From the NCBI RefSeq assembly GCF_003075525.1, contig NZ_QDDR01000011.1, positions 1 to 64,000 on the forward strand: a DNA stretch of 64,000 nt, given 5' to 3'. The stretch is from Pararhodobacter aggregans (GTDB lineage Bacteria; Pseudomonadota; Alphaproteobacteria; Rhodobacterales; Rhodobacteraceae). Both the position numbers and the translations under genes were made by a program. Below the pieces are notes generated by a model that saw only the letters and a list, made by a program, of their open reading frames with translations, was not told the origin of the DNA and searched no databases. Positions 35,749 through 50,927 of the stretch are shown piece after piece (position 1 is the first letter of the stretch; every line of letters begins with the position of its first letter).

Positions 35749-35771
35749 TGTGAGGTCTCCTTCGGTTGCGG

Positions 35772-35788
35772 TGTAAATGTTATTTACA
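35772..35788. promoter_or_regulatory. Perfect palindromic operator upstream of DUF2852
   Basis: TGTAAATGTTATTTACA is a 7-bp perfect inverted repeat with a 3-base centre, ending 24 bases before the DUF2852 start. Position and symmetry indicate a repressor or activator site. The regulator is not identified. Confidence 0.6.
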
Positions 35789-35886
35789 TTCACATAGGTG
35801 GGGATGGCAAGCCGGGGTTCAAGAGAGAGGTGGAGATTTTTTTGGTTGTGTGTGCGTTGACAGATATTCCTGCAGTAAGGCGGGAT

Positions 35887-36223
35887 CACGTGGGAAGAGC
35901 CGGTAGCAGGCGGGAAACACTAGGGATTACAGGGCTTTGGCACGAGCCTGAGCGAACCCGCGGGGCCTCCGACAAAGTTGCAGAAACCGCGCGAAAAGGC
36001 GTGTTCGGGACGGTGCCAGGAGCTCGCGACAAGGCCGTTGAACAGGGCCTTGAAGGCTGTTTCTAAAGGCTTTTTCGGACGCACAGTGACCTCTGAGCGG
36101 AATTGGAACCTACACGTGGGCGGTAAGTTCCGGCTCTGGCGTGTAAGTTCGCCATAACATGCTGAAATTATGGGATATCCCGACCATACGATCCTCCCGA
36201 CCAGTCCTACGAACCTACACGCG
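35887..36223 (+). repeat. Homologous island block, copy A
   Basis: The first ~112 bases match copy B (45075-45411) at roughly 89% by eye, including GGGAAACACTAGGGATTACAG-like sequence. After a diverged middle, four octamers follow at the same spacing as in copy B: GAACCTAC at 36106, two inverted copies (reading GTAAGTTC at 36123 and 36143) and GAACCTAC at 36211. No gene is assigned; the frame shared with copy B has many non-synonymous differences. Confidence 0.75.
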
Positions 36224-36508
36224 ATTTCCTTTCGTCACGTGGGCGTTGCGCCCCGACCCGCAGTCTACGACACGCTGACCGCATGCTGCGCAGCCGACCG
36301 CCGCGCTCAGCATAACTCGATTCGATCGCTCCACGCTGCTTGGTGGCCAAGCAGGAGTGTGTTCGACAAGTCTGGGCGGAAAGCCGACCTTCGCTGTGCA
36401 TCTCGCGAACGACCGCATTGGCGCAGGAAGCGAACCTACGGTGCAGCAAGGATCGGACATTGCGAAGTTCGTCGCCGAGGAGCTTGGACAAGCCGTGGGA
36501 CTTATTAG
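36224..36508. other. Gene-free stretch right of block A
   Basis: No convincing gene between block A and the protease stop. One further octamer GAACCTAC occurs at 36432. Base composition begins to drop here. Confidence 0.5.
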
Positions 36509-37378
36509 TCAGGTATCGAACCTGACATCACCCACATCCGCATTCTTGGGAATTTCAGCGGAAAAGCGAGCCTTAATCAGTTCCTCAATGCCGTGCAATT
36601 GCGATGATCGAATGGCATTTCCTAAGTGCATCATGGCAGAGACTTCAACTTTCGGCTGCTGTTGCAATACAATTTTCCCATCGTTGGTAATTAATGGGCC
36701 GCTGTAAAGTACTCCGACGAACCTGACTCTGCTTACGCCAATTTTAAAACTATTGGTCTTTCGGTCGAGATATCCGTTGCGGTCATATACAAAGATTGGC
36801 GAGCCAGACGACCCTGGAAAGCAGGCCATATCCACCATGAATTCTTGTTTTCCGCCATATAGCTTAGTCAGTGATGAAGCTGTGTTTCCTCGCCGCGTTA
36901 TCGGTAGGTTGTTAAAGTCGTCAAATATGCCTCTGGGGCATCCTATCATGATGACCTCTTCAAAGGCATCAAAGTATTGCCAATCGTCATCTTCCGGCAC
37001 GAGTCCGAAATCTAGGCCAGTATAGAACAGAGGGGTTCCATTGGCCTCAGCTTGATTCAAGATGGGTCCAAATGGCACTGCGCAGAGGTCAACGTCCGGA
37101 TCCGGATGAGAAATTATAGCGCCAGGACGTGCATCTAAGTGGCAAGGTATGAAACTCCCTGAAGGTTTGGGCCCTTCTGCGGTGTGGCAAACTATAGTGA
37201 CTTGATCGCACCCCGCAACGACATGCTTATTTGTGATGACGGCCGGGATGAATAGATCATCTGAAACCTTAAAGTTAAAGAAGAATCCAGTTCCGAATCC
37301 CACTTGAGCACCGCCTCGAAATGCCGAAATGCGTGTCGTAGTGAGAGTTAATTGCTCCGCCAAAGTCAATCCAGGCAT
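36509..37378 (-). CDS. Stand-alone S1 (trypsin-like) serine protease
   Basis: Protein of 289 residues from the ATG at 37378, behind GAGGGG. Catalytic triad: His52 (ITNKHVVAG), Asp97 (PDVDLCAVPF) and Ser191 (FPGSSGSPIF). No signal peptide is seen, so it is probably cytoplasmic, unlike DegP-type proteases. GC and codon use are much lower than in the flanking chromosome. It sits between island block A and an SOS-type promoter. Cytoplasmic trypsin-like proteases of this kind often act in bacterial conflict systems; that role is inferred here. Confidence 0.85.
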   Translation of the reverse strand: MPGLTLAEQLTLTTTRISAFRGGAQVGFGTGFFFNFKVSDDLFIPAVITNKHVVAGCDQVTIVCHTAEGPKPSGSFIPCHLDARPGAIISHPDPDVDLCAVPFGPILNQAEANGTPLFYTGLDFGLVPEDDDWQYFDAFEEVIMIGCPRGIFDDFNNLPITRRGNTASSLTKLYGGKQEFMVDMACFPGSSGSPIFVYDRNGYLDRKTNSFKIGVSRVRFVGVLYSGPLITNDGKIVLQQQPKVEVSAMMHLGNAIRSSQLHGIEELIKARFSAEIPKNADVGDVRFDT

Positions 37379-37608
37379 ACCCGCAGCCCCTCTGCAATGA
37401 TAGCTATTCAAGCGCAATGTTCTACAGCCCGAGGTGCAACGCAAGGACTTCTGCGCTTCCACGTTCGAGTGATGCTATTTCCCTTTTGGTGACGCATTTT
37501 CGACGGCGAACGTCCGCGTGGGCTGGCAGCGGCGGCATGCTGCGCCTGTTGCGAACGTCCGCAATGGGCCGCAAACCGCCCTTAGGCCAAGACCGACGGA
37601 ACGGCTCG

Positions 37609-37775
37609 GTTTGAACATTCGTTCCCCATGTGTTCTCATGGCGCGACGGAGAATCGCCCATGCCAGCAGTCCCAGCCAGCAACCGTTTCAGCAACCGATC
37701 GATCCGAGACTGCGCTCGCGACGGCATGATCATCGTCATGCGCTGCAACCACTGCCGTAGGCAGGTCAACTACTG
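37609..37775 (+). repeat. LexA-box / zinc-ribbon segment, copy 1
   Basis: From 37609 about 93 bases are nearly identical to 47729 onward, and similarity continues less strongly to about 37775. The segment carries the promoter, LexA box, ribosome site and start of the zinc-ribbon gene. Confidence 0.85.
37611..37639 (+). promoter_or_regulatory. SOS promoter with LexA box (copy 1)
   Basis: GTTCCCCATGTGTTC (37621-37635) is an exact GTTC-N7-GTTC alphaproteobacterial LexA site. It lies between a possible -35 TTGAAC (37611-37616) and -10 TCTCAT (37634-37639), so LexA would block polymerase. The next two genes should be DNA-damage inducible. Confidence 0.8.
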
Positions 37776-37977
37776 GGCATCCGACCTTGCCCAGGTCATC
37801 GAGGATCCCTTCCACGAAGCGCACATCCCGCCCTGGGGCTGCGCCAAATGCCGCACCAGCGAATACATGGTCATGCGCTGGCGCGTGCCCTCGGCCCTGG
37901 AGTTGTCCAAGGGATTGACGGTGCGCAGGCCGGTCCGCAAGGTCACAAAGTGGATCTGGAAGGACGAGCGGATCTGA
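37660..37977 (+). CDS. Zinc-ribbon protein in an SOS operon
   Basis: Small protein of 105 residues from the ATG at 37660 (GGAGA ahead). Two cysteine pairs, MRCNHCRR and WGCAKCRT, predict a zinc ribbon, followed by a basic C-terminal tail. An internal ATG at 37726 would give an 83-residue form that still contains the ribbon. Its stop overlaps the start of the SRAP gene, so the two are co-translated. Function unknown; damage-inducible expression is predicted from the LexA box. Confidence 0.8.
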   Translation: MPAVPASNRFSNRSIRDCARDGMIIVMRCNHCRRQVNYWASDLAQVIEDPFHEAHIPPWGCAKCRTSEYMVMRWRVPSALELSKGLTVRRPVRKVTKWIWKDERI

Positions 37978-38594
37978 TGTGCAATCTCTACAGCAACACC
38001 ACCACGCAAGAGGCCATGCTCCGACTGGTCGAAGGGATGACCGACAGGGCTGGCAACCTCACGCCTGGCGAGGTCTATCCCGACCAGCTCGGCGCGATCA
38101 TCCGCCATTCCAGCGATGGCCTGGAACTGGTCAAGGCGCGGTGGGGCATGCCGTCGCCCCAGTTCGCTTTGAAGACCGAACGCGACCCGGGCGTGACCAA
38201 CGTTCGCAACCTGTCTTCGCCGCACTGGCGTCGCTGGCTGGGTGCCGAGCATCGTTGCCTGGTGCCGCTGACCAGCTTCGCCGAGCCTCGCGGCAAGGGG
38301 AAGGGCAACCAGTGGTTCGCCTCCACTGACGGTCGGCCGATGATGTTTGCCGGGATCGAGGTCAGGGGCTGGACCAGCCTGCGCAAGGTGAAAGATGGCG
38401 AGACGACTGACGACCTCTTCGCATTCCTCACCTGCGAGCCCAATGCCGAGGTGGCCCCGATCCATCCCAAGGCAATGCCGGTTATCCTGATTGAGCCAGA
38501 CGACTGGCAGGCGTGGCTGCAGGGCGCCCCCGCGGCCGAGTTCCAGCGGCCACTGCCGGACGGGTCACTTGCGTTGGGTGATGGCGCGACTTGA
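37977..38594 (+). CDS. SOS response-associated peptidase (SRAP/HMCES family)
   Basis: Protein of 205 residues that shields abasic sites in single-stranded DNA by covalent attachment through Cys2 (MCNLYSN). Other active-site positions are kept: Asn in TNVRNLSS, Glu in TSFAEP and His in PIHPKAMPVIL. Second gene of the LexA-controlled operon. High GC and usual family length. It converges with a small exported-protein gene of the prophage region. Confidence 0.94.
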   Translation: MCNLYSNTTTQEAMLRLVEGMTDRAGNLTPGEVYPDQLGAIIRHSSDGLELVKARWGMPSPQFALKTERDPGVTNVRNLSSPHWRRWLGAEHRCLVPLTSFAEPRGKGKGNQWFASTDGRPMMFAGIEVRGWTSLRKVKDGETTDDLFAFLTCEPNAEVAPIHPKAMPVILIEPDDWQAWLQGAPAAEFQRPLPDGSLALGDGAT

Positions 38595-38642
38595 TCCGCG
38601 CCGAGGCGCCTCACCAGGGCGACCGGGTGCCAAATCCAGTAG

Positions 38643-39041
38643 TCAGCGGCGCGGCATTCTGGCCAAGCAGGTGTTCAGAACACGTTCCTGCTCGTCAGGT
38701 TGCTGACCCGCCAGTGAGATCAGGACAAACTGCTCCTGGCCCGAATTCTCTGTCACCAGGGACCCCATGAAGGGCGCGAAATCTGAGATCCCGCCAAAGC
38801 CATTCCGGCCTGCAACCATACCGCAAACCCAGATCATCCCCTCAAGCGACGGATCTGTTGCTGCGATGACGTCGCGAAACTGAGCGCTTTCAGGCTCCCG
38901 CAGACGGCTGGACACCACCGAATGGATCGCCGCGTCCTGATCCCCAGAAAGCGCGACGAGCTCCTGCGCTAGAGCGCTGGTCGAAGCACCCAGGGCAAAC
39001 GTCATGGCACACACCAAAGCAGATCGCATCGCTACTCTCAT
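38643..39041 (-). CDS. Small exported protein downstream of the phage repressor
   Basis: Protein of 132 residues with a Sec signal (ALVCAMTFALGASTSALAQ). The mature domain has two cysteines (VCGMVAG and LNTCLA) that could form a disulfide. No family recognised. Its ATG lies 4 bases after the stop of the repressor gene, so it should be expressed with the repressor in the prophage state, like a lysogenic conversion gene (inference). Alternative start at 39029. Confidence 0.75.
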   Translation of the reverse strand: MRVAMRSALVCAMTFALGASTSALAQELVALSGDQDAAIHSVVSSRLREPESAQFRDVIAATDPSLEGMIWVCGMVAGRNGFGGISDFAPFMGSLVTENSGQEQFVLISLAGQQPDEQERVLNTCLARMPRR

Positions 39042-39045
39042 TAAC

Positions 39046-39717
39046 TCATTCCCAACTATGCCCGCTCCAAACGACTCTCCCCAGGCAGCGCACGCGTGCA
39101 GCGTCTGACCCCGTGCGGGCTTCTGGCAGATGCGCCGGATTGTCCGACATGAGGACGAGCGCACGGCCCTTGTCCAGGAGGATGCGCTTGATCCTCACCC
39201 CTCCATCTAGATCGACAAGGGCGAAGACCTTGTTGTGTTCCCAGGTCGCGCGGTCCTGATCGATCAGAGCCAGATCGCCAGGGCGCAGCTCTGGCGCCAT
39301 GCTGTCGCCGGTGACGGTGATCAGCGTCGCTCGATCCGGCTTCACCCCAATCTTCCGCAACCAGTCTCGGCGAAAGGCGAGCCTGCCTGCCACTTCGGGC
39401 GTATCGTGGTTCAGCGCGCCGGTTCCGGCGCTGGCCTCGACGGCGAGGCGGAGGATCGGCGCGAAATCGTCGCCATCAACTTCGAGCGCTGGCTGCGCTC
39501 CCGGATTGTCACGCCGCTTCCCGAGATAGAGCTCAAGATCGAGCGCCTCAGCGATAGCCGCCATCCTCTCAACAGAGGGCGCTGAACCCTTCTTGATACT
39601 CTGGATCGCTGTGTTGTCGGCCTTTCCGAACGCCCTCATGCCAACATCAGTCTGGCTGAGGCCCAGCTCGCGCCGCCTCGACTCAATCAGATCATAGATG
39701 GCGGCGGCACTGAGCAT
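39046..39717 (-). CDS. CI-type phage repressor with S24 peptidase domain
   Basis: Protein of 223 residues: N-terminal XRE helix-turn-helix (LGLSQTDVGMRAFGKADNTAIQSIKKG) and C-terminal LexA/S24 self-cleavage domain with Ser in TVTGDSMAPELRPGD and Lys in VRIKRILL. It should hold the Mu-like prophage silent and be inactivated by RecA during DNA damage. Divergent from the Ner/Cro-like gene across operator-like repeats. Confidence 0.92.
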   Translation of the reverse strand: MLSAAAIYDLIESRRRELGLSQTDVGMRAFGKADNTAIQSIKKGSAPSVERMAAIAEALDLELYLGKRRDNPGAQPALEVDGDDFAPILRLAVEASAGTGALNHDTPEVAGRLAFRRDWLRKIGVKPDRATLITVTGDSMAPELRPGDLALIDQDRATWEHNKVFALVDLDGGVRIKRILLDKGRALVLMSDNPAHLPEARTGSDAARVRCLGRVVWSGHSWE

Positions 39718-39760
39718 GGTGGAAAATTACACCAATGCGCATTTTGCACAAGTCCGCCCC

Positions 39761-39842
39761 TATGGAAATAGTCCGTTTCTAAGCGGTGCAAAATTTCCAT
39801 TGACCATCGGTATAAAATTTCCATAATGGCCTTATGGAAACG
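39761..39842. promoter_or_regulatory. Prophage operator/promoter region
   Basis: AAAATTTCCAT occurs twice as direct repeats (in 39787-39800 and 39811-39824), with inverted TATGGAAA at 39761 and 39833. A promoter TTGACC (39800) - 16 bases - CATAAT (39822) drives the rightward genes. Its predicted start falls at the ATG at 39834, suggesting a leaderless mRNA. Confidence 0.6.
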
Positions 39843-40082
39843 AACCACCTCATCACCCTCGCCGCCATCCTCGCCGCCCATAAGGGCCGGTCGGAAACGA
39901 CCGTCGCTGGCTGGTGCGGCGTCCACAAGCGTCTGTTCGCCCGGTTGAGCGAGGGGAAAGGCTGCCGTGTGGACACCTACAACACGGCCCTGAGGTCCTT
40001 TTCGGAGCTCTGGCCCGCCGACCTGGAATGGCCGCGCGACATTCCCCGTCCCCCCAAAAGCAAGAAGGAGAAGGCAGCATGA
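39834..40082 (+). CDS. Ner/Cro-like small DNA-binding protein
   Basis: Protein of 82 residues with a probable helix-turn-helix (LAAILAAHKGRSETTVAGWCGVHKRLFARL). It occupies the place of Ner/Cro, right of the CI gene and first in the early operon. No ribosome site is seen before the ATG, in line with a leaderless start. Confidence 0.75.
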   Translation: METNHLITLAAILAAHKGRSETTVAGWCGVHKRLFARLSEGKGCRVDTYNTALRSFSELWPADLEWPRDIPRPPKSKKEKAA

Positions 40083-40201
40083 TGCGCTTCATCCGGGCGC
40101 TGCGTGCGCTCGAGGATCATTGGCTGGGCGACCTGATCGGGGCGCTATGCCTCTTCGCCGCGCTCTGGCTGGGCCTGATGGCCGGGGCGGTGATGCAATG
40201 A
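40079..40201 (+). CDS. Very small phage membrane protein, 40 residues
   Basis: MMRFIRALRALEDHW, then one hydrophobic helix LIGALCLFAALWLGLMAGAV. GGAG precedes it. The start overlaps the preceding stop and its own stop overlaps the next start (ATGA), so it is embedded in the early operon by translational coupling. Function unknown. Confidence 0.75.
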   Translation: MMRFIRALRALEDHWLGDLIGALCLFAALWLGLMAGAVMQ

Positions 40202-40548
40202 CCGTCTCGACCAGGATGCACAACCAGCCCAAACCCGTGCACGCCCGGTTTCGCGCCGAGTACGCGACCGGCCGCGGTTTCGAGATCATCGATCCGACCG
40301 GGCGGGTGGTCGGCCGCGAACAGAACCGCGCCATCGCCCTGAACCGCGCCGAAGCCCTGCAGAAGGAGGCGGACACCGCCGCCAAGCGCGGCCCCCGCCC
40401 CTGCCTGTGCTGCGGGCGGGAATTCCTCAGCGACGGCATCCACAACCGGATGTGCAATCCCTGCCGCGGCCGGGCGGATCCGCTCGACCGTTACGGCTAT
40501 GCGGGTGGCGAAGGCGGCCGCAAGGCGCGCCGGGGCTCGGGGTTCTGA
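40198..40548 (+). CDS. Phage early-operon zinc-finger-like protein
   Basis: Protein of 116 residues with a Cys4 cluster CLCCGREFLSDGIHNRMCNPC near the C-terminus, a basic tail and no recognised family. Coupled to its neighbours by ATGA overlap upstream and a 1-base gap downstream. Confidence 0.75.
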   Translation: MTVSTRMHNQPKPVHARFRAEYATGRGFEIIDPTGRVVGREQNRAIALNRAEALQKEADTAAKRGPRPCLCCGREFLSDGIHNRMCNPCRGRADPLDRYGYAGGEGGRKARRGSGF

Positions 40549-40549
40549 C

Positions 40550-41398
40550 ATGACACCGAGGCTGATGACAATCGACCGGGTGAAGGTCGAGGAGATCGAC
40601 ACCAAGGGGCGGCTGCGCCCGGTGTCCGAGGCAGGCGTTGCGGCGCTCATGGCCTCGATCGACGAGACCGGCGTGATGAAGGACGCGATCCATGTCCGCC
40701 AGAAGAAGAACGGCACGCTGGCGCTGATCGCGGGCGGGCACCGGCTGGAGGCGGCGAAGCGGCTGGGCTGGGCCGAGATCGAGGCCAAGGTCTGGACGGA
40801 CGTGACCGACGACTGGTCGCGGCTGATGGAGATCGACGACAATATCGCCGGGGCCGAGCTGAACCCGCTCGACACCGCGCTGTTCCTGGCCGAGCGCAAG
40901 CGGGTCTATGAGAAGCTGCACCCGGAAGCAAAGCGGGGGGTCGCGGGCGCGGCAGCACGTTGGGATGCAACTGACACGATGTCAGTTGCATCTTTCGCCG
41001 ACGCGACGGCTGAGAAGTTCGGCCTTTCGCAGCGCCATATCTTCCGCCTGATCGCCGCCGGAACCCGCCTTGATGCCCGCGATGTGGCCCTGCTGCGCAA
41101 GGCGCCGCGGCCCATCACGCTCAAGGACCTGGCCGAGATCGCCAAGATCAGCCAGCCGACCGACCGTTATGAGGTGGTCGAGGCGCTGGCCGAGGGGCGC
41201 GCAAAATCCGCCGCCGAGGCGCGCCGGGCAATCGCCGCGAGCGAGGGCAGTGCTGCCCCCGTTGAAGACCCTGTTGAAGCGGGTTTGAAGGCCCTCAAGA
41301 CCGCCTGGTCCCGCGCCCCGAAAGAGGCCCGTCGCCGGTTCTGCCGCGACCATGGCGACGAGATCTCTGCCCTTCTCTTCGAGGGGTCGCCGGAATGA
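40550..41398 (+). CDS. ParB/Srx-domain protein of a Mu-like phage
   Basis: Protein of 282 residues. The N-terminal ParB-like domain has SEAGVAALMASIDETGVMKDAIHVR and the box LIAGGHRLEAAKRLGW. A helix-turn-helix (AEKFGLSQRHIFRLIAAG) follows. It lies just before the transposase gene, a usual place in Mu-like phages of Rhodobacteraceae. Probably DNA binding in early phage functions. Stop overlaps the next start by 4 bases. Confidence 0.88.
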   Translation: MTPRLMTIDRVKVEEIDTKGRLRPVSEAGVAALMASIDETGVMKDAIHVRQKKNGTLALIAGGHRLEAAKRLGWAEIEAKVWTDVTDDWSRLMEIDDNIAGAELNPLDTALFLAERKRVYEKLHPEAKRGVAGAAARWDATDTMSVASFADATAEKFGLSQRHIFRLIAAGTRLDARDVALLRKAPRPITLKDLAEIAKISQPTDRYEVVEALAEGRAKSAAEARRAIAASEGSAAPVEDPVEAGLKALKTAWSRAPKEARRRFCRDHGDEISALLFEGSPE

Positions 41399-42084
41399 CC
41401 GAACTCGCCCCCGCAAAGCATTGGTGGACGGCGCAGGAGCTCGCAGATGCGGCCCTGCCCGATCTGCCGACGACGCGCCAGAATGTTGAGCGCTGGATCG
41501 CCCGCGTGAACCTTCGGGCCAATCCCGGCCTCGCGCGCCGTCGCACGGGCCGCGGGGGCGGCTGGGAGTATCATTGGAGTGCCCTGCCCCTCGCCGCCCG
41601 GCGCATGCTGCTGGCGGGCGCGGCGGAACCAGTGCGGGCCAATGCCGTGACGCGGGGCCAAGCCTGGGACTGGTTCGAGGGTCTGCCCGAGGACGTCCAG
41701 GCAAAGGCGCGCGAGCGCCTGGCCGCCGTGCAATCGGTCGAAGCGCTGGAGGGACGGCTGGGCCGCGATCTGGCCGCGCGCGAGGTGGCGGCGATGCGCG
41801 GCGTGAGCCCGCGCACCCTGTGGAACTGGCTGGCTCTGGTCGAGGGCGTGCGCCCTGACGACCGGCTTCCGCATCTGGCCCCGAAGCACCGTGCGGTGGT
41901 GCGCAAGATGCAGCGGGCCGAGTTCGACGAGGAGTTCTTCGACTGGCTGAAGGCTGATTACCTGCGCCTTGCCGGGCCAAGCTTCTCATCCTGCTATCGC
42001 CGCGCCGAACGGGTGGCGAAGGACAAGGGCTGGACGCCTGCCCCCGAGCGGACCATGCGCCGCTATCTGGACGCGCGGGTCTGT
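41395..42084 (+). pseudogene. MuA-type transposase, truncated after its N-terminal domains
   Basis: About 230 residues are recognisable: the Mu DNA-binding start (KHWWTAQELADAALPDLPTTRQNVERWI), the winged-helix region and AAREVAAMRGVSPRTLWNWLALVEGVRP. The DDE catalytic core (normally several hundred more residues) is missing. The open frame runs on to 42372 but, after about 42084, encodes out-of-frame methyltransferase sequence. A deletion has therefore joined this gene to a downstream phage gene. Confidence 0.85.
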
Positions 42085-42581
42085 CCCTTGGTTTCGACCG
42101 TGTCGCCGCAGACCTTCAGGACATGGGCTACCGGGCTGCTGCGTGCGTCGTATCAGCGGCGGAAGTCGGTGCGTCGCACATCCGCGAGCGGATGTTCATT
42201 CTGGCCCACGCCGACCTTCAAGAGCGCAGGCAATCGGGCCTGCATCATGTTGACGCCGGAGCGGGGGGTGGTGTTTCAGACCGACATGAACCAGACCGGG
42301 AGCCAGGTCGGACTGAAAAACGCGGCGAGCTCCTGGACGCTGATGTGGACCTTGCTGATGGCCGCGGGCTGAACACCCCAGAACCCGGTCTCTTCCCCCC
42401 GATGCCGGGTGATCTTGCTCAGTGGGGAAAAACACTCCGAACGCGCCCTTATCTTCAACCCTGCCTTCACCGACTGGATGATGGGATGGCCTTCGGGCTG
42501 GACCGACCCGCTGCGGCCGGTAACGGGGTGGTCCCAATGGCTGCGGCGAGGGCGTGGCGGATGTTGATGCACCAACTCTAG
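42085..42581 (+). pseudogene. C-terminal fragment of a phage cytosine-5 DNA methyltransferase
   Basis: Read in the frame of the ATG at 42123, and extending upstream without a start (LGFDRVAADLQDMGYR), this has the Dcm-type run SAAEVGASHIRERMFILAHAD and the C-terminal motif X region GNGVVPMAAARAWRML. The catalytic PCQ and ENV motifs are absent, so it is inactive. It is a different reading frame from the MuA fragment it abuts. Confidence 0.8.
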
Positions 42582-42978
42582 TCCTGGCACCGCTACGTTT
42601 GAGGCGGCGTAGATCCCTTCCCCGCGCGCCGGATCTGGCCGCGCTCGAACTCGACCGACAAAGAAGCGCGCGACCAAGACAACTGCACGGTCGCCAACCA
42701 CGATCAGGGCTAGTGCTTGGGACATTCGTCGCTGGCGCGGCTGAAGCTGTAGCGGTAGCTGTAGCTGTAGCTGTAGCTGTAGCTGAGGAAAAGAGTAACC
42801 GTGCCCCCACGGGCTGCGTCTCGTCCATTCTGCTCAGAAGTTGGAGCCTCTGGCAAACTCGGCGCGGTTCACAGCGATCATTTTCGCACTACGACTCTGC
42901 TTGGCAGACTTATAAAAACATGCAAAAAATAAAGAGCTAAGTCCGCGTGGGAACGAAACGGCTACCGAACCAAATCGT
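42582..42978. other. Gene-free gap with hexanucleotide tandem repeat
   Basis: No supported gene. GC drops sharply to the right of 42880, marking a junction between phage DNA and the low-GC segment that follows. The short tandem array at 42746-42787 is described separately. Confidence 0.5.
42746..42787. repeat. Tandem hexanucleotide GCTGTA, about 6-7 units
   Basis: Seven consecutive hexamers, five exact GCTGTA plus GCGGTA and GCTGAG. On the plus strand it encodes alternating Val-Ala in an unsupported frame. Units are multiples of three, so copy change would not shift a frame. Confidence 0.85.
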
Positions 42979-43005
42979 TTGCCGTTTGAAGACGAAGTTG
43001 TGGGA

Positions 43006-43854
43006 ATGACGCAGAACGATCCAGAACCATTGCAAATCAAGCACCTGAATCGAGTGGATCTCTGCTCGCTGTCACTCAGATATGCTTTTTCGGATCTAAT
43101 TTATCGCTTCAATGAACGCGAGAAGTTTGAGACCCGGAAGGTACTGGACAAACAGAAAAAACTCATGGCAGCACGAAAACTTCGGCAAGCGGTCAACAGG
43201 ACGCTGATACATCACCAAGAAGGGATCTTGCGAACCTACAACCGCGACACACGGCCAGACGACGCAGCGCTTGCGCAAGCGATGATTGTGACAATTCCTG
43301 CGATATGGAGGACCGCAAGGTTTTTTTATCGCAACGCCCTTCCAATTCAAAGTGTCGGAAATCTGTCGGAGATTACAAATATATCTAGACAGATTATATC
43401 TAATAAGCTGAGCCTATTTCGAAAGGACCACGACGGATACATAAAAATTGGCAAAGTATCTGGGATCATGATGGAGATGGTCGACATTCCAGGACGCGAG
43501 CAAAAAGGGCACAAAATGGTCTTGCTCGAGCCAGCGAATATCGCCGGCCACCTCCCCAATGCGATTGTCATCTACGGGCCAGACCCTAGTATTGGAAAGC
43601 AAATAGAGGGGGAGGAGATTACCGAGGAACTTGCTAGAGCTCGACTTTTTAAGGAAATAGGGCGCCCCATTTTGGAGCTCCAAGGAGAATCTAAGAATCT
43701 TATAGAAATTATCAAATTTTTAGACGACAAAATCTTCGCCTCAAGGTACTTCGTTGAGGGTAACAAGGCACGTCTTATCCACGGTGACGAGCCGCTTGCA
43801 TTTCGAACGCTGAGCATTCATGCTGGAAGCTGGCGGCGTAGCTCAGTTGGTTAG
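43006..43854 (+). CDS. Unknown low-GC protein running into a tRNA-like gene
   Basis: Protein of 282 residues from the first ATG (43006); a TTG at 42979 is possible. No family recognised. It is basic and mostly helical; residues ~120-145 (NLSEITNISRQIISNKLSLFRKD) look like a helix-turn-helix, so DNA or RNA binding is conceivable. GC and codon use differ strongly from the chromosome. The stop codon (43852-43854) lies inside the D arm of the tRNA-like gene, so the last ~8 residues are tRNA-derived and the natural end may have been lost. Confidence 0.65.
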   Translation: MTQNDPEPLQIKHLNRVDLCSLSLRYAFSDLIYRFNEREKFETRKVLDKQKKLMAARKLRQAVNRTLIHHQEGILRTYNRDTRPDDAALAQAMIVTIPAIWRTARFFYRNALPIQSVGNLSEITNISRQIISNKLSLFRKDHDGYIKIGKVSGIMMEMVDIPGREQKGHKMVLLEPANIAGHLPNAIVIYGPDPSIGKQIEGEEITEELARARLFKEIGRPILELQGESKNLIEIIKFLDDKIFASRYFVEGNKARLIHGDEPLAFRTLSIHAGSWRRSSVG

Positions 43855-43921
43855 AGCGCAGCCCTGATCAGCCGTGTGGCCCAGGCTAAGGTCGGACGTT
43901 CGAATCGTCCCGTCGCTACCA
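43832..43921 (+). tRNA. tRNA-Ile(GAU)-like gene with a 13-base anticodon-loop insertion
   Basis: Acceptor GGCGGCG (43832-43838) pairs with CGTCGCT (43911-43917; two G-T wobbles), then ACCA is encoded. D stem GCTC/GAGC, T stem GGACG/CGTCC with loop TTCGAAT are perfect. The anticodon stem CAGCC (43859-43863) pairs with GGCTA (43884-43888; one mismatch), but the loop is 20 bases, CTGATCAGCCGTGTGGCCCA, instead of 7. The normal loop would begin CTGAT, giving anticodon GAU. Probably a decayed, disrupted or unusual island-borne tRNA. Confidence 0.6.
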
Positions 43922-44180
43922 TCTTCCGCCAGAGACGAGGCAAGAATGATCGCTTCAGCCGCGCAAGAGATCAAAGCAAGCAAAAACATACTGTTACATA
44001 AGTTATCGGTCGCAAGACGCTTCAATCCGACGGATGCACGGATCGCGCACAACCAACGGATAGTAAAGACTTTATTCCCAACCATAAGTCCGTGAGCGCT
44101 GGGTTTGCGCAGATGCGTCAAACTTCTCGTGTCGGGAACGAAGAAGCCGGCAGCGCAAACCCATAACATGGAGTATGGAA

Positions 44181-44699
44181 ATGAACTTCAGCAGCAGAGT
44201 TGCGTCCGCAACCTCGGCACTTGCTCTCGTCATTTCGGTGACTGGCGCGGCGCAGGCCGCGTCCTCCGGAGTGTGCAACCGAGCGCACAGCAATGCTGTG
44301 GCACAGACCAACCAGCATATGAACCAATGGGCCGCGGGCATCGAAGATGCCGGCCTGCCCCGCAACCTCACGGTTGCGATGCTGGAGGTCATCGAAGCAA
44401 CTCGCGCAAATGCACTGGCTGAAGCAGCCGCAGCCCGCGACGATTGCACCAACAGCACTGCAGCGCCTCAGGACATCATCGACGCATCTGTGTTGGTTAT
44501 CTCCGGCGGCCTGTCGGCGCTCTTCCCAAACAACATGGCGTACGTCGATATATCGGAGATAATGGGCGGCTACCCACTCGGCGGCCCCGATGCCCTGATC
44601 CCGCGCTTTCGCGAGCAGATTCTTGGCAACGGTAACGGCACCATTGCCAACATCATTCGCGACCCTATCCGTTGCGTGACCTTTCGTCGCCGCTGCTAA
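44181..44699 (+). CDS. Exported protein, 172 residues, no family recognised
   Basis: Sec signal (SATSALALVISVTGAAQA) followed by a mature domain with four cysteines (GVCN, DDCTN, IRCVTF and the final C), suggesting disulfides. I chose the ATG at 44181 (GGAG 7 bases ahead) over 44175. GC is higher than in the gene to its left, so the two have different origins. A hairpin follows the stop. Confidence 0.75.
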   Translation: MNFSSRVASATSALALVISVTGAAQAASSGVCNRAHSNAVAQTNQHMNQWAAGIEDAGLPRNLTVAMLEVIEATRANALAEAAAARDDCTNSTAAPQDIIDASVLVISGGLSALFPNNMAYVDISEIMGGYPLGGPDALIPRFREQILGNGNGTIANIIRDPIRCVTFRRRC

Positions 44700-45074
44700 G
44701 CACCGTTGACAAACCATCTGGGGTGGCGCTGCCGCCCCAGAACCGCCTTTGGGTCGCCAGTCCGAAGAACACCCGCCTAGCGGCCAACGCTATGCTTCCA
44801 CGCGACCTCGCGCCGTTGCTGCCGGAATCTAATGAGATAGAAGGGCTCCCAAGACATGCATCAACGCGACAGACACACTTTTCGGTATCAGCATCGAATG
44901 CTATCCACAGCTGTACGCAATGAGGGTGGCGCAGCAATTGTATTGATCGCTTGCCGCCCGGCCAAACCGTTTGATAGGCGATGACTTGCGGCACAAAGAC
45001 CGCCGGGCGCCCCCACTGCGGGCTTAGCCTGGTGCAACAAACCGTGTCAGACTCTGCAAGAATTGCTGGCGCGC
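44700..45074. other. Gene-free stretch with terminator
   Basis: CTGGGGTGGC (44718-44727) and GCCGCCCCAG (44731-44740) form a stem that should end the 44181 transcript. Nothing else supported. Confidence 0.5.
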
Positions 45075-45411
45075 CACATGGGAAGGGCCGCTAGCAGGCA
45101 GGAAACACTAGGGATTACAGAGCTTTGGCAGGCGGCTGGGCGAGCCCGCGGGGCCTCCGGCAAAGTTGCAGAAACCGCGCGAAAATGGGCACCCGGCGCC
45201 TCGACAGGGGCTGACCGAGAAGGCCTAAGATGTTGCCTTGAAGGCTGTTTTTAAAGGGTTTTCAAGGGCGCGTGGACTGACCTGGCACGCTCGGAACCTT
45301 CAACTGGGCGGAAAGTTCGCGCCTTCAGTAGAAAGTTCCGGTTAAGTTTATGAAAAAACGAGGAAAAGGAAGAGACCTGCTTCAAGATTGATCCAACCGA
45401 ACCTTCAACTG
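45075..45411 (+). repeat. Homologous island block, copy B
   Basis: Matches copy A (35887-36223) in length and layout. The first ~112 bases are about 89% identical. The four octamers sit at the same offsets but read GAACCTTC at 45294 and 45399, and GAAAGTTC (inverted) at 45311 and 45331, where copy A has the TAC form. The block precedes the small membrane protein and zincin genes. Confidence 0.75.
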
Positions 45412-45851
45412 ATTTTCGCCGGATCTGGAGCGGCCGAGACAGAAGGCCCGGCAACATGCGATCTGCTGCGAAGCGCGCAGCACACCTGGACACCACATGC
45501 ACCAACCCTCTGAGCGAGGCACAGTTGCCCAAAAGCTCTCGTAAAAGCGGCAGGAATGGGCAGGGAGCTGCCATCTGCTGCGAAAGTCACGAGTGGCAGA
45601 AGTGCGCAGATAGTGAACCTTGCAAAGTTTGGCGCGCTTCCCGACAGCGGACCTTCGTGCAGACTTCGGCGACCGACGACAGATAGCCTTCTTTGATAGA
45701 TGCTGCAGCGTGGACGAATGGCTCCTTTCGCATTTCAAGGTAGTCTCTGAATTACCACTTGCATCGTGAGAATTATAGACCCACAATACAAACCGTAGTA
45801 GTCGCTTTCAGATAGCTTTCACACAAGACTCTCGCTTCTCAGGAAGGAAAA
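45412..45851. other. Gene-free stretch right of block B
   Basis: No supported gene in about 440 bases. It presumably holds the promoter of the following two-gene unit, but no clear -35/-10 stands out. A degenerate octamer GAACCTTG is seen at 45615. Confidence 0.45.
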
Positions 45852-46148
45852 ATGCAACACATAGCAATAGAAGTGACCGAGCGGGATATTGACGAATTGA
45901 GGAGCGAATTCAATAATAGAAATATAAAGGTCGATGTAGTTCGATCGAATGGATTCGATGCCTCTTCAATTGTTACATTGATTGTAGAGCTTTCTCCAGT
46001 CACTGCCGGCCTAGTTGCCACTTTGTATGGCATTAGAAAGAGATCGGAAAAACATATAAAATTGAAGCATCGTGGAATCGAAATTAAAGGTGTATCGGAA
46101 GCCGCCCTCTTGAAGATACTGGAGCGCGCAGAGAAGCTGGATAATTAG
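45852..46148 (+). CDS. Small membrane-anchored protein, effector-associated-domain-like
   Basis: Protein of 98 residues behind a clear AGGAAGG site: an alpha/beta N-terminus (residues 1-38), one hydrophobic helix (40-60, SIVTLIVELSPVTAGLVATL), a basic turn (IRKRSEK), then a beta-hairpin and helix (HIKLKHRGIEIKGVSEAALLKILERAEK). This plan resembles EACC1-type constant components found beside protease effectors in conflict systems. The resemblance is by eye only. It is 8 bases upstream of a metalloprotease gene. Confidence 0.7.
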   Translation: MQHIAIEVTERDIDELRSEFNNRNIKVDVVRSNGFDASSIVTLIVELSPVTAGLVATLYGIRKRSEKHIKLKHRGIEIKGVSEAALLKILERAEKLDN

Positions 46149-46156
46149 CTCTTGAT

Positions 46157-47356
46157 ATGAGTATTGACAGTTATATCCATGCCACGCGGAAAAATTTCCC
46201 GAAACGAGCAACCAACTCAGTTTATAGAGACGAAATTTTCCCGCTGTTAGATATTCCTTCGGCAGCGTCCGGTCTGAAATTTTGCCCCCTTATCCCGATT
46301 GTCACTTATTCGTACTCACGTCGCGTCGAATGCGTTGAGTTCGAAGGTCAGGAATATCTGATTTATGACCAATACATGGGGCAAACATTTAACGTCTTTA
46401 ACAGACTGGCATTTGATGACGGTAATACCGAAGCGCGCGTGATATACTTTATGAAGTATGCGGCAGAGCGGCTGTTGCAGCTTGGCGACGAGCGCAACGC
46501 TCTCATCTTGGCAATTATCCATAGCAATCTAAAAAGGAACTCCACATATTTCTCGAACGCAAGTCCGACAGAGGAGCGCGGTCTGTCGATTTTCGTTCAA
46601 GAGCTTTATCTGATGGCTCATGAAATATATCACTCTCTCCTCAAGCGGAGCAATGGCTTGAGTAGAGATTCAAGAGATCATGCAAAGGAGTTCTTGGAAG
46701 GTAGACTACGGACACCCAATGAAGAAAATTTATCAAGTATGAGCAGCCAAGTTGATCGCGACTTTCATGCCGTTATGAGTGTTGCGTTAGGCTTTGAATT
46801 GGATATTGATGAGGAGCTAATTCGCGAACTGTGCTGCGACAGGCTTGCGTTGAATTTCTGCGCAACTACAGTTCCGCACTTGTTCGGTCAGAGTGTTTTG
46901 CAGCGAGTCCTGACATCTTGTTATACAGCACATCTGTTCACTAGGATGCTTACATTTATTGATCAGGATTTGGCGAAATTTTCCGAGGGCATTGTCGACG
47001 GTGAAGGAAATTTTGATAGTATGTTGAGCAGAGACTATGCAGTCCATCAGGCTAGAAAGGCATACATTCGCCAATGCAGCTTCTACTATGCGGCGGATAT
47101 AAACCAAGGCTCAGAGAAGACTGGCGTCGCGGGCGGTCAAGCGGTACTATCATCGATAGATTTATTTAAAGCACTCGAAGAAGTCCAGAGTTCCATCCAA
47201 GAGAATCTTTCTGGCCCCCTACTCAGTATTAACCGTGCCTTTGTAACGGGCGAAATATTAGATGATTTTTCATTTGTAGGAGACGCTGTTGATGAACTTA
47301 GATCGACAAGGGAGTCAGACTTGGCCGGTTTAGCTGAAAGACTCCTTGGCTGGTGA
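46157..47356 (+). CDS. Predicted zincin metalloprotease of an accessory two-gene module
   Basis: Protein of 399 residues, no signal peptide. The zinc motif HEIYH (His155, Glu156, His159) lies in a helix (FVQELYLMAHEIYHSLL). A likely third ligand is Glu224 in IRELCCDRLALN, whose E-x-x-x-D layout resembles M48/M56-like gluzincins. The N-terminal ~130 residues match nothing I know. The strongly AT-rich codon use marks it as acquired. Co-transcribed with the small membrane protein, which may tether or gate it. A defence or toxin role is inferred. Confidence 0.7.
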   Translation: MSIDSYIHATRKNFPKRATNSVYRDEIFPLLDIPSAASGLKFCPLIPIVTYSYSRRVECVEFEGQEYLIYDQYMGQTFNVFNRLAFDDGNTEARVIYFMKYAAERLLQLGDERNALILAIIHSNLKRNSTYFSNASPTEERGLSIFVQELYLMAHEIYHSLLKRSNGLSRDSRDHAKEFLEGRLRTPNEENLSSMSSQVDRDFHAVMSVALGFELDIDEELIRELCCDRLALNFCATTVPHLFGQSVLQRVLTSCYTAHLFTRMLTFIDQDLAKFSEGIVDGEGNFDSMLSRDYAVHQARKAYIRQCSFYYAADINQGSEKTGVAGGQAVLSSIDLFKALEEVQSSIQENLSGPLLSINRAFVTGEILDDFSFVGDAVDELRSTRESDLAGLAERLLGW

Positions 47357-47728
47357 ACACATGTTGTCCGCAAACTTGCATCACGCTGTACCGGTTTCTA
47401 ATGAGCTAGCATTTGAAGCGAGCGGAGTAGTTTTGGAGCAATACCGGAAAAGTTGTTGACGCCGTGTTCTGGCGATTTTCGACCCGGACGTCCGTAATGT
47501 GACACTCTTTTCCTTAAATTCTCGGATGGCGACCGCTGGCTGGTGATCTCACGGGAAGCAGCCATTGGCGTCACCGATCCAAATGATAGTTTTGTCTCGC
47601 ATTGTGTGAGTTCGCGACCTTCGTGGTGAAGGTCTGCTAGCACAACTCCGCATCTGGGGCCTTGGGTCCGTTTTGGGCTCAAAGCTACTCACGGCCCCGC
47701 TGCCAGGCGTGATCCACACCGCGGCGCA
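47357..47728. other. Gene-free stretch after the zincin gene
   Basis: About 370 bases with no supported gene. The transition from low to higher GC takes place here. The shared LexA segment begins abruptly at 47729. Confidence 0.45.
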
Positions 47729-47740
47729 GTTTGAACATTC

Positions 47741-47755
47741 GTTCCCCATGTGTTC
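47741..47755 (+). promoter_or_regulatory. LexA box, copy 2
   Basis: GTTCCCCATGTGTTC, identical to copy 1, upstream of a broken zinc-ribbon gene. It probably still binds LexA but now drives only a truncated frame. Confidence 0.75.
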
Positions 47756-47779
47756 TCATGGCGCGACGGAGAATCGCCC

Positions 47780-47898
47780 ATGCCAGCAGTCCCAGCCAGC
47801 AACCGCTTCAGCAACCGATCGATCCGAGATTGTCCCCGGCACAGCATGATTATCGACATGCGCTGCAACAGCTGCCGCAGGCCGGTCAACTACAGGGC
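47780..47898 (+). pseudogene. Zinc-ribbon gene fragment (copy 2)
   Basis: About 40 codons matching the intact gene at 37660, up to MRCNSCRRPVNYRA. The second cysteine pair and the C-terminus are replaced by transposase sequence. Confidence 0.8.
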
Positions 47899-47903
47899 AT
47901 GCC

Positions 47904-48113
47904 CGCGACCTGATCGCCACCTGGGTTACCGACTACAACACCGAAAGGCCCCACTCGGCTCTCGACTACCAGTCGCCCGCAGGCTTCGCACTGCACCTGA
48001 CCACCGTAATCGCCCGACCCGCTGCACGCGATGAATGCTCCGCGCGTCGGGCGATTGCCCACCCCGCGCCAAAAGGCGTAGATCAACGACCGGCTCCGGT
48101 CGCGGCTGGATGA
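47904..48113 (+). pseudogene. IS3-family transposase (OrfB) C-terminal remnant
   Basis: About 69 codons reading RDLIATWVTDYNTERPHSAL then DYQSPAGFA, the hallmark end of the IS3-group integrase domain, up to a TGA at 48111. The rest of the element is gone. It is fused to the truncated zinc-ribbon gene. Confidence 0.88.
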
Positions 48114-48545: not shown

Positions 48546-49442
48546 CTAGTCAGCGTAGCATTGGCTTACTATTTGCTGGGCATCGACGAAAGTCTCCTGG
48601 TATGTTTGGCCATTTGAAAAGGCCTCATCATAGAGCAAGCGCATCATAATTTGGTCGCGCAGTCCGTAATTGTAGTAGAGCGGTGGGGGAAGTGCTTGTC
48701 CGCGCCAACGGACATTGGAGAACAAGCCAATATCTCCCTGAGGATCGCCACGCAGCCCACTTGCATTGTAGAGCTCCTGCCGGACGCAGGAGGAGATATA
48801 GTCTGGAGAACGGTTGAACTCTGTATTGATAAAAACAAACGAAATCTCTCGATGCCGGGTCCACTCTGGCATGGAGGTGAAACAGGTGTTTTCTGGTCGA
48901 ACAAACCTTGAGAGTTCACGTTGGAAACCGGGCCGACCGTCGAAGAGGTCGATGGCATCATGGACGTTACTCCTGTCTATAAAGAAAATAGCGATCCAGC
49001 CACCGAGCAATGGCTCACCGAGACTCGCAGTCTCAAACTCCACGGAGAGCATAGCCTCTTTCATCATCAAATAGGAGTACATTGCCAAGGCGCCTGCCAT
49101 GGAATCCAATTCCTGGAGAATGCTAATCCCATGTAGCGTAATGCGCACATCCATCCCTCTCCTCAGGAGCGACAGAAAGCAATCATTGCAATCCGGCCCA
49201 GAATCCACGTGATGAGCCATGTAAGAAAAATCAGACACAAGGGAATAATCGTTCTCGGAGTCATATCTTCGAATAAATGCACAATCATTTTCGCTAAGCA
49301 GCATCTGGGCAACGCTGGCATCAGGTGCGAGTACAATTAATGTCATCACACTAAGTGCGGCGCCCCTGCAAGTCCCTGAAATCGAAAATGCACCTTCCGC
49401 CCCTTGAGAAGCCGGATTGCGGGGAATATTCTTTAGGTTCAT
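48546..49442 (-). CDS. DUF2927-like exported protein
   Basis: Protein of 298 residues from the ATG at 49442 (a TTG at 49463 would add 7). A hydrophobic segment (ALSVMTLIVLAPDASVAQ) about 30 residues in looks like a late signal peptide. The C-terminus CVRQELYNASGLRGDPQGD ... LRDQIMMRLLYDEAFSNGQT matches the DUF2927 pattern (C-x-x-x-E-L...GL...D; LRLLYD...G). Function unknown. GC is lower than the chromosome. Confidence 0.78.
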   Translation of the reverse strand: MNLKNIPRNPASQGAEGAFSISGTCRGAALSVMTLIVLAPDASVAQMLLSENDCAFIRRYDSENDYSLVSDFSYMAHHVDSGPDCNDCFLSLLRRGMDVRITLHGISILQELDSMAGALAMYSYLMMKEAMLSVEFETASLGEPLLGGWIAIFFIDRSNVHDAIDLFDGRPGFQRELSRFVRPENTCFTSMPEWTRHREISFVFINTEFNRSPDYISSCVRQELYNASGLRGDPQGDIGLFSNVRWRGQALPPPLYYNYGLRDQIMMRLLYDEAFSNGQTYQETFVDAQQIVSQCYAD

Positions 49443-49836
49443 GCGAATACTTTTCGTTACCAAGCTCCAAGTTGAGACATAAGGAGCAATCGCGGATCGG
49501 AGAGAAGAGCCAGTGCTGCCCCCTTGCGCACCAATAGACTTTCAATTTCCGTACAACTTCACGAAGCAGTCGCCCCCAAAACACTTCGCGCGGTGGTCAA
49601 CCAGCTCAATTCATCTATGGTGCGCGGATCGGTCGCCTCCATATTTGCCCTTGTCGAAAACCTATGCGGTGCCCCAAAGTCGCAAGAGCTTCTTAAGGCT
49701 TACACTAGAAACTTGAGGTGATCCAGCGAGGTATGTTTCGGCGCGCCAATGTCCCTTCCACGGTCGATCTTTGGATGCGACTGGCTCTGCTGCTCTATTC
49801 GGAATGAGGTTTGATTCGTCTCGTTCCGAGATATCT

Positions 49837-50471: not shown

Positions 50472-50521
50472 TGTCAAACACTGCAAGACCTGTTGTCGCG
50501 CTACACTTGCAGTGTTTGACA
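50472..50521. repeat. Perfect 16-bp inverted repeat at island edge
   Basis: TGTCAAACACTGCAAG (50472-50487) and CTTGCAGTGTTTGACA (50506-50521) are exact reverse complements with an 18-base centre. It may be head-to-head IS ends, a recombination site or an operator. Confidence 0.75.
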
Positions 50522-50607
50522 TCGAAAGCTGCAACAGTCGGCCCGCCGCGCGGCCCGGGTCGCTTGGCGCCAGCCGGGCTGGGGCTGCCGATGGCGCCCG
50601 GCGGCGG

Positions 50608-50811
50608 TCAGTCGTCGGGTGGAGAGGGCAGGGTCAGGCGCTGGATGTCGGTCTCCAGCTGGGCGATCACCTGGGCGGTCTCGTCGACGCGCTTGCCGTC
50701 GGGCAGGGTGTAGATGGCGGCGCGGGTGCCGTTGCGGTAGTCCGACAGCAGCGCCTGCAGGTAGCTGCGCTGCGTTGTCAGCCAACGGCGGTATTCCTCA
50801 ATCTGTGTCAC
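50608..50811 (-). CDS. Small acidic coiled protein, 67 residues
   Basis: Protein from a GTG start: MTQIEEYRRWLTTQRSYLQA ... YTLPDGKRVDETAQVIAQLE. High GC and third-position bias suggest it is real. The pattern slightly resembles small phage head-tail joining proteins, but that is not firm. It lies between the island edge and a response-regulator gene. Confidence 0.5.
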   Translation of the reverse strand: MTQIEEYRRWLTTQRSYLQALLSDYRNGTRAAIYTLPDGKRVDETAQVIAQLETDIQRLTLPSPPDD

Positions 50812-50927
50812 GGGATCGCACTCGAACTGGGGCAGGACAACCAGGAGCAGATTGCCGCCTGCGTCACGCCGGGGCCATTCCCCATTTCAGGGGAGGCCGC
50901 CCTGCCCCGGCCGACCCCGCGCGGCGC

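Follow-up and report, generated by a model that had tools for sequence, protein, structure and literature searches.

The closest described systems to the locus studied here are transposable phages. The locus lies in a 64,000-nucleotide stretch of DNA from Pararhodobacter aggregans (positions 1 to 64,000 of contig NZ_QDDR01000011.1, the whole of which is called the window below) and comprises a Mu-like element, element 1 (35851-45078), and a probable second one, element 2 (45079 to approximately 50505). The Rhodobacterales transposable siphoviruses vB_RhkS_P1, vB_ThpS-P1 and vB_PeaS-P1 showed the same order of MuA-type transposase, ParB-like gene, Ner-like gene and reverse-strand repressor, but the window elements are truncated. 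In the genome paper on vB_ThpS-P1 and vB_PeaS-P1, as far as its text was available, the genes in the interval of interest here, between the left end and the repressor, are listed as hypothetical proteins, and the terms 'left end', 'SOS' and 'defense' are absent (PMC5488378).

Phage Mu and the Pseudomonas aeruginosa D3112/Ab30 group are alike to the window elements in their left-arm repressor, terminal ends and transposition, and a 5-bp target duplication was found in a relative of the elements in genome G264. The available part of PMC5977238 gives the repressor as the left-most gene of Mu, whereas in the family described here 0.4-6.7 kb lie outside the repressor. Mu-like phages of P. aeruginosa carry accessory regions A to I, mostly in the left arm (PMC4378225, accessible text). 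Hotspots of defence genes have been described for P2-like phages and for P4-like satellites (PMC9122126 and PMC9519451, each in the part available). These likewise hold varied anti-phage systems at a fixed position of a temperate phage, but the phage type and the position differ. The available portion of PMC9519451 mentions Mu-like phages only where it names further prophage types that carry one of its systems. In the literature searched, which consisted mostly of papers outside subscription, no paper describing a defence slot at the left end of transposable phages was found, and the accessible parts of PMC12135933 and PMC13232261 held nothing on such a slot.

We read the region as an array of decayed Mu-like prophages, from a transposable phage family of Rhodobacterales/Alphaproteobacteria in which the interval between left end and repressor is a slot for interchangeable cargo, often with defence-like content, and we assign this reading a probability of about 0.82. 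The sequences show the ends of element 1, the gene order, the variability of the cargo and the homology of much of the cargo to defence families.

Ends and gene order of element 1

The set of related loci comprised the 80 best of 251 hits in genomes and the 80 best of 457 viral hits, together with the window, two prophages of the same genus (L045, the prophage of genome G263, and L046) and four phage records. It numbered 167 loci, of which 166 contained MuA. Termini were scored with a weight matrix built from 46 distinct 25-bp ends, with the window excluded from training. Both termini of element 1 carry family-type TG..CA ends (37.8 and 16.0 bits). Its order is left end, trypsin cargo, zinc-ribbon gene, SOS response associated peptidase (SRAP), repressor, Ner-like gene, ParB-like gene and transposase N-terminus:

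35851 to 36150, plus strand: left end of Mu-like element 1, beginning TGTGCGTTGACAGATATTCCTGCAG and including the block 35887-36074; 37.8 bits, the best matrix match in the window
36509 to 37462, minus strand: cargo 1, a trypsin-like protease, PDC-S45 (Trypsin_2 PF13365, E = 8.9e-10), with GSSG and TNKHV motifs
37621 to 37635, plus strand: LexA box GTTCN7GTTC, reading GTTC-CCCATGT-GTTC, the same as at 47741
37630 to 37977, plus strand: small zinc-ribbon gene, copy 1, an open frame in a repeat, with no family at the curated cut-off
37977 to 38594, plus strand: SRAP (PF02586, E = 1.8e-20)
38643 to 39164, minus strand: hypothetical protein adjoining the repressor, with repressor-side relatives in L018, L072, L081 and L116 (phmmer)
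39046 to 39717, minus strand: S24/helix-turn-helix (HTH) phage repressor (PF00717, E = 1.5e-16)
39834 to 40082, plus strand: Ner-like early gene, named by its position and by relatives at the same place, which numbered 121 open reading frames (ORFs) in 113 of 167 loci
40120 to 40548, plus strand: conserved early gene of unknown function, with relatives in 88 of 167 loci, the window counted
40499 to 41398, plus strand: ParB-like early gene (PF02195, E = 2e-6)
41395 to 42372, plus strand: MuA-type transposase, N-terminal part only (PF09039, E = 1.4e-16; PF02316, E = 2.6e-5)
45054 to 45078, minus strand: right end of element 1, immediately followed by the left end of element 2; 16.0 bits, second best in the window

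The order of left end, cargo, minus-strand repressor, Ner, ParB and MuA in the window is that of Rhodovulum phage vB_RhkS_P1, Thiobacimonas phage vB_ThpS-P1 and Sinorhizobium phage Aussie. The segment 39046-42372 is a left arm of the kind found in Rhodobacterales and Rhizobiales transposable phages. The partial record of Pelagibaca phage vB_PeaS-P1 showed the same order, with zero annotated genes outside the repressor. A terminus starting TGTGCGTTGACA, 36 bp outside the left block, is common to copy 1 of the window, the prophages of G255 and G263, and the site in G257. Two viral contigs, L128 and L172, apparently one phage, have their first base exactly at such a terminus, and the record of vB_ThpS-P1 finishes at one.

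The MuA homology of element 1 stops at approximately 42100, and its identity to three prophages of the same genus was 78, 72 and 51%. Between approximately 42100 and 42580 the MuA frame continues, by reading and without a family search, into what resembles the C-terminus of a phage DNA methylase, and we read this as an internal deletion joint. No head or tail genes were recognised among the window proteins scanned. We read this as decay and therefore class the elements as remnants, not phages. No 5-bp target duplication is visible in the window, where the neighbouring end is truncated.

Variability of the slot across the family

The slot was measured in 77 distinct loci including the window. 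These were left from 98 loci with an end of at least 13 bits after 9 without a repressor call, 5 below 19 bits and 7 repeated left ends had been dropped. The distance from left end to repressor ranged from 407 to 6720 bp (median 1252, interquartile range 919-2970), and that from repressor to transposase from 750 to 4192 bp (median 2518, interquartile range 2089-2887). The constant inner border of the slot is the repressor. We called loci with a left end-repressor interval greater than 1.6 kb loaded (n = 34 including the window). The GC content of the slot was below that of the early region and transposase in all 34 loaded loci, with medians of 0.571 and 0.634, respectively.

The slot differed even between close relatives. 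Among pairs with MuA identity of at least 75%, 26 of 30 have less than 25% of their slot DNA in common in both directions. L201 and L205 are 97% identical in MuA yet have 2-3% of more than 6 kb of slot DNA in common, and L086/L206 (93% MuA), L061/L120 (92%) and L049/L141 (88%) showed zero shared slot DNA by blastn. The variability across the 77 loci and in the close pairs supports cargo exchange, as exchange in a cargo slot of a phage.

Cargo content and resemblance to defence genes

The window trypsin matched positions 7-287 of the 293 of the PDC-S45 model of PADLOC (E = 1.7e-96), a candidate family. We take the prefix PDC to mean phage defence candidate. Relatives of the trypsin occurred in 4 viral contigs, and a 33% partial match was present in Shigella phage SfII (2 records). 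In viral contig L241, from another Mu-like phage, the relative (51%) is the immediate outer neighbour of an S24 repressor that is followed by ParB and MuA; a distant phage thus has the same cargo in this slot. A further relative was seen in L244:1-12810, where the other ORFs read like an OLD-type ATPase, an SRAP protein, a portal and a terminase (labels by reading). L244 would accordingly be another phage type, given its ATPase-, portal- and terminase-like ORFs.

Different defence-type systems were found at one conserved position of related phages. Slot genes were called with a home-made scorer, and 103 slot proteins of at least 150 amino acids (the window, L017 and L018 excluded) were scanned as a set. 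Pfam matches among the 103 included 10 D12 methylases and 7 YbjQ-like proteins. At 1e-4 the 103 slot proteins gave 288 PADLOC families and the control proteins outside the slot (78 of 167) gave 20, in sets that are not length-matched and with family counts inflated by overlapping methylase models. Scanned singly, 18 of 34 non-window slot proteins, the 34 being larger proteins and a non-random draw, matched PADLOC at 1e-5 or less, 6 of the 18 as methylases only.

The slot of phage Aussie holds AriA and AriB (PARIS), and that of the G255 prophage an LmuB-like ATPase. Further slot matches were a type IIG restriction-methylase, PDC-S20 and a methylase, a partial PD-Lambda-5_A, PDC-S15, RmrA and RmrT, five methylases, PifA, PDC-M41B/M30B and an AriA/GajA/OLD-like ATPase. 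In vB_ThpS-P1 two unnamed genes occupy the same slot. The slot of L045 (L045:5712-8685), a prophage with an open full-length MuA frame, holds an HTH_20 regulator, an LMWPc phosphatase-type protein, an SBF transporter, ArsC and an FMN reductase. We read these genes as a putative arsenic-type operon, presumably with ArsR, ACR3 and ArsH among its products.

The left flank of the repeats in the window is the inner part of the left end of the phage, presumably the terminus bound by the transposase, and the right flank is a gene for an SOS-type zinc-ribbon protein. From these results we infer how the slot may work. Cargo in the slot may be expressed in the lysogen and may shield the host and the prophage from other phages. 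As the slot lies outside the repressor-transposase block, genes could be swapped without disturbing phage functions, possibly by recombination in shared flanks. Element 1 carries the PDC-S45 protease and element 2 a 98-amino-acid protein with a putative zincin, and two neighbouring prophages give the double picture seen in the window. The window trypsin, as a member of a candidate family, is likely to act in defence.

If so, the left end-repressor interval gives a coordinate for seeking new defence genes in a widespread, little-studied phage family, and slot genes without a family match become defence candidates. The 98-amino-acid protein and the putative zincin of the window are two such candidates. 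The idea of defence hotspots, so far tied to P2-like phages and P4-like satellites, would then also apply to transposable phages.

Repeat pairs and the zinc-ribbon gene

A preliminary description of this DNA had proposed a cassette site, present twice, in which low-GC protease cargo is exchanged between two conserved flanks. Both repeat pairs were present where it had placed them, by ungapped comparison and by BLAST. The left pair (35887-36024 and 45075-45212) was 83% identical without gaps across 138 nt, with a further 28-nt piece at 93%; by BLAST, 35887-36074 matched 45075-45262 at 80% (E = 7e-41). The right pair (37602-37780 and 47722-47900) was 91% identical across 179 nt (E = 2e-65). BLAST gave no further match between the flanks, so the interior DNA of the two copies is unrelated as described, and the cargo is indeed low in GC (approximately 0.41-0.56 in 500-bp steps, against approximately 0.58-0.77 in the surroundings).

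The labels given to the cargo fared differently. The protease of copy 1 is borne out by its Trypsin_2 match. The 'zincin' of copy 2 goes back to its HEIYH motif; searches of PADLOC, Pfam, NCBIfam and PDB sequences gave nothing significant, and the name is kept as a motif-based label. The 98-amino-acid ORF, described as a membrane protein, had no family and a low-confidence structure model, and this label was not confirmed. EACC1, which we take to be a component of a conflict system, was considered for the same ORF and dropped, as no PADLOC, Pfam or NCBIfam match was obtained.

The left block has 2 copies only in its own genome. As DNA it was found in 0 of 247 other genomes of the family and the right block in 4 of 247, over 21-32 bp each; few candidates were scored per genome, and diverged copies may escape such a search. 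In the 17 other genomes of the genus the left block gave a single 25-bp match, which is a diverged phage end at the same host site, and the right block gave none, under the same limits of few scored candidates and possible escape of diverged copies. A 27-bp match of the left block in phage records (E = 0.03) lies inside a terminase gene and was judged to be chance. The check suggested for related genomes, a search for the two flanks together, thus did not find them as a DNA pair elsewhere.

The LexA-box segment was claimed for both copies. The window has 4 GTTCN7GTTC sites, and boxes are present at 37621 and 47741, but the gene of copy 2 is truncated at approximately 47900. As a fixed right flank the segment does not hold, with relatives of the zinc-ribbon protein in only 4 of 166 non-window loci (phmmer), namely L045, L047 and L051/L138 (one contig in two collections), inverted and adjoining the left end in two. 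A separate search of viral contigs found no relatives by that method. The LexA box lies at -9 from the ORF start in the window and at -20 in L045 and L047, and L051/L138 are without a box. Because its place and strand vary, we regard the zinc-ribbon gene as mobile cargo and not as the right border of the slot.

A third copy of the right block was found in the same genome (C6:296726-297100, 81%). In its context (L006:8727-9101) a full ORF at 8784-9101 follows a phage-like lysis region with an ORF reading like a phage amidase (no family search), and a tRNA-Gly lies 0.3 kb beyond it. By reading, GTTCTCTATGTGTTC stands upstream of this copy.

The idea of exchangeable cargo is therefore right in substance, with different genes in most close pairs, and the frame of a free-standing cassette is wrong, the site belonging to transposable prophages. 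Its presence twice follows from two prophages lying in tandem.

Element 2

Element 2 is probably a tandem prophage remnant without repressor or transposase, and its right end is the weakest call:

45079 to 45340, plus strand: left end of element 2, with the outermost 36-40 bp missing; 82.9% to the inner left end of element 1
45852 to 46148, plus strand: cargo 2a, the 98-amino-acid protein; no family in PADLOC, Pfam or NCBIfam, and a model with a predicted local distance difference test (pLDDT) score of 57
46157 to 47356, plus strand: cargo 2b, the putative zincin of 399 amino acids, with HEIYH at 155-159
47722 to 47900, plus strand: truncated zinc-ribbon gene with a LexA box at 47741; right-pair repeat, 91%
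47904 to 48050, plus strand: transposase C-terminal fragment (rve_3, E = 3.6e-9), directly after the truncated zinc-ribbon gene
50481 to 50505, minus strand: probable right end of element 2; 11.1 bits, third best in the window
50506 to 50546, no strand assigned: inverted copy of the inner right-end sequence (inverted repeat I1, 76% over 41 nt)

Where the two elements meet, a CAC is common to the right end of element 1 and the left end of element 2, and the junction looks like a small deletion. The putative zincin had no relatives in 389 other genomes of the order, plasmids, viral contigs or PDB sequences, and its single-sequence model (pLDDT 38) was too poor for a fold call. The inverted piece beyond 50505 is perhaps a truncated third element facing the other way. 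The stretch 50506-50811, outside the probable right end, also holds a minus-strand ORF of 67 amino acids with no significant Pfam match.

The three top matrix matches in the window were 35851 on the plus strand (37.8 bits), 45078 on the minus strand (16.0 bits) and 50505 on the minus strand (11.1 bits). The next scores were 6.2 (the same right end as 50505) and 5.7, and the best beyond 35-51 kb was 4.4. The match at 45078 stops exactly where the left-end similarity of element 2 starts.

Neighbouring ends and probable prophage arrays

Ends lying beside ends were also found elsewhere in the family. The comparison covered 74 distinct left ends that had more than 70 bp of upstream sequence. Outside 18 of them, at 2-28 bp, lay a further end of at least 11 bits, and in 10 of these 18 the spacing was exactly 5 bp. 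None of 1260 random 70-bp stretches taken from the same loci contained such an end. The loci with neighbouring ends include 45054-45079 of the window, L057, L048, L071, L110, L134, L141, L163 and L170. An apparent head-to-head pair was seen by reading in L094.

The clearest chain was in genome G264. Phage A extends from 1163010 to 1123381 and is flanked on either side by GCGGG, a 5-bp target duplication. An 8.9-kb element, B, has its right end 5 bp from the left end of phage A, and another right end is found 5 bp from the left end of B. The left end of element B (approximately 0.65 kb) and its right arm (5.5 kb) matched phage A at 91-97%, and the 2.7 kb between them did not match; the 8 kb beyond element B matched phage A across approximately 0.8 kb only. 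An internally deleted copy of A is the simpler account of element B, and a non-autonomous satellite, an idea also considered for element 2, is the less likely one.

Second full prophages as owners of the neighbouring right ends were rejected, with one MuA match each in the genomes of L057, L094, L110, L071, L049 and L096. Of 10 genes just inside neighbouring ends, 4 matched PHROGs, none of them a tail or other late gene, so these genes alone are no proof of a phage right arm. With a single MuA per genome and no late-family genes, the older neighbours are remnants at best. From the counts of neighbouring ends, the chain in G264 and the remnant type of the neighbours, arrays of successive decaying insertions seem common in the family, and the window reads as one such array. 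Some junctions in draft or viral contigs could instead reflect the assembly of a single phage as a circle or a concatemer.

Genes just outside abutted left ends varied (L048:270-1010, L071:105-1226 and L170:3948-5435); one was formyltransferase-like and the others were without a PHROG match. Given this variation, the right end may be a second place for cargo, or the genes may belong to the host.

Target immunity in Mu would argue against insertion beside resident ends. We nevertheless suggest, tentatively and at rather less than even odds, that phages of this family insert exactly beside the ends of resident relatives, so that successive prophages form arrays whose left-end slots together make an ever larger defence island. 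Such end-beside-end insertion would account for the window array of two or three elements differing in cargo, for the 5-bp spacing at 10 of the 18 neighbouring ends, for the three abutting ends in G264 and for the different left ends that sister species have at almost one and the same host base pair. For Ab30, 0.4% of insertions lay within resident copies, and the genome ends formed two small domains of their own (PMC5977238, available part). If the suggestion is true, target choice in the family is a testable exception to Mu immunity.

Alternative explanations

Several results weigh against the array and slot reading. The pattern behind the matrix was picked by eye with the left end of the window in view, and the 37.8 bits are partly circular. 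In 100 shuffled windows the matrix gave 13 matches of at least 11 bits and 3 of at least 16 (best 26.0), and in 1.34 Mb to the right of MuA in the collected loci it gave 11 and 5, respectively. Matches without an evident end scored 14.4 and 18.6 bits in G265 and 16.4 in L244. The chance expectation for matches as good as 50505 was approximately 0.1-0.5 per 64 kb. Given this chance rate, the main support for the right end at 45078 is its position one base ahead of the left end of element 2, and the right end at 50505 is probable only. Element 2 had no repressor, Ner, ParB or MuA match by tblastn, and it is identified by the similarity of its inner left end and by a right end obtainable by chance. 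On the side of the cargo, the control proteins matched PADLOC too (TnsC-like in 4 proteins, and single ThsB, PDC, HNH and methylase matches), many slots hold just one small gene, and the window putative zincin is without relatives in the collections searched. The close pairs overlap in members, are not independent and were compared on DNA only, and L174/L175, L092/L098, L085/L197 and L049/L134 have at least 30% of their slot DNA in common in at least one direction.

The alternative with the most weight is that the cargo consists mostly of general accessory genes or passengers of a decayed island rather than defence genes. The arsenic-type operon in the L045 slot, the YbjQ-like proteins (7 of 103) and the 16 of 34 singly scanned slot proteins without a PADLOC match fit it, the last being a count from the same non-random draw of larger proteins. 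We nevertheless consider it unlikely, at somewhat under one chance in three, as RmrA/RmrT, AriA/AriB, PifA, the type IIG restriction-methylase, the OLD/GajA/LmuB-like ATPases and PDC families all occurred in the slot.

The doubling in the window could also come from a single prophage that was duplicated, with the cargo then replaced in one copy. This would explain why two left ends, and probably also two right ends, follow one another, but the left ends are approximately 17-20% different, the two right-end 25-mers are clearly different, and the phage of G264 with an abutting element has its own 5-bp target duplication, which makes duplication improbable. A cassette site independent of phages, working by homologous recombination between two conserved flanks, is less probable still and in our estimate very unlikely. 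Two points favour it: both flanks are repeated around unrelated cargo, and the right flank is closer (91%) than the left (80%), a difference that a recent exchange could have produced. However, the left flank lies within a phage terminus, the right flank is a gene of changing place and strand, and searches scoring a few candidates per genome did not find the flank pair as DNA in other genomes, and so found no flanks conserved apart from a phage. We therefore retain the tandem of two decayed Mu-like prophages, each with its own slot.

Host site

A DUF2852 gene adjoins the left end of element 1 and was matched in 15 of 18 genomes of the genus, its own counted. Of the 14 other genomes with this gene, three (G248, G255 and G257) carry a Mu-like end at this position; the remaining 11, G222 included, gave no BLAST match past the gene region. 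A Mu-like end beside the DUF2852 gene was thus seen in four species of the genus, its own included (35751-35851 of the window; L015, L044, L212/L246 and L211). G248 and G255 hold one common element, 89.7% identical across 1197 bp including the end.

The window and G257 were 95.9% identical in the 450 bp of host DNA and 75.3% identical over 283 aligned positions within the first 300 bp of the end, where shuffled controls gave 149-208 aligned positions at 71-77%. With the host DNA 96% alike and the ends approximately 75%, these are different left ends at nearly the same base pair. They may have arisen by replacement, by repeated insertion, or by insertion beside an older end with later loss of the older element. 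The right host flank (50900-51600) does not adjoin the left flank in the loci of relatives, and a clean empty site for the entire island is therefore lacking.

Further genes of the two elements

Three orphan genes lie in the distal parts of the elements:

42979 to 43854, plus strand: low-GC orphan gene in element 1, with no significant family (Pfam, NCBIfam, PADLOC)
44175 to 44699, plus strand: orphan gene close to the right end of element 1, with no significant family
48546 to 49463, minus strand: orphan gene in element 2, with no significant family

A tRNA-like gene at 43832-43918 (Rfam tRNA, 53.8 bits), which ARAGORN was unable to name, overlaps the end of the ORF at 42979-43854.

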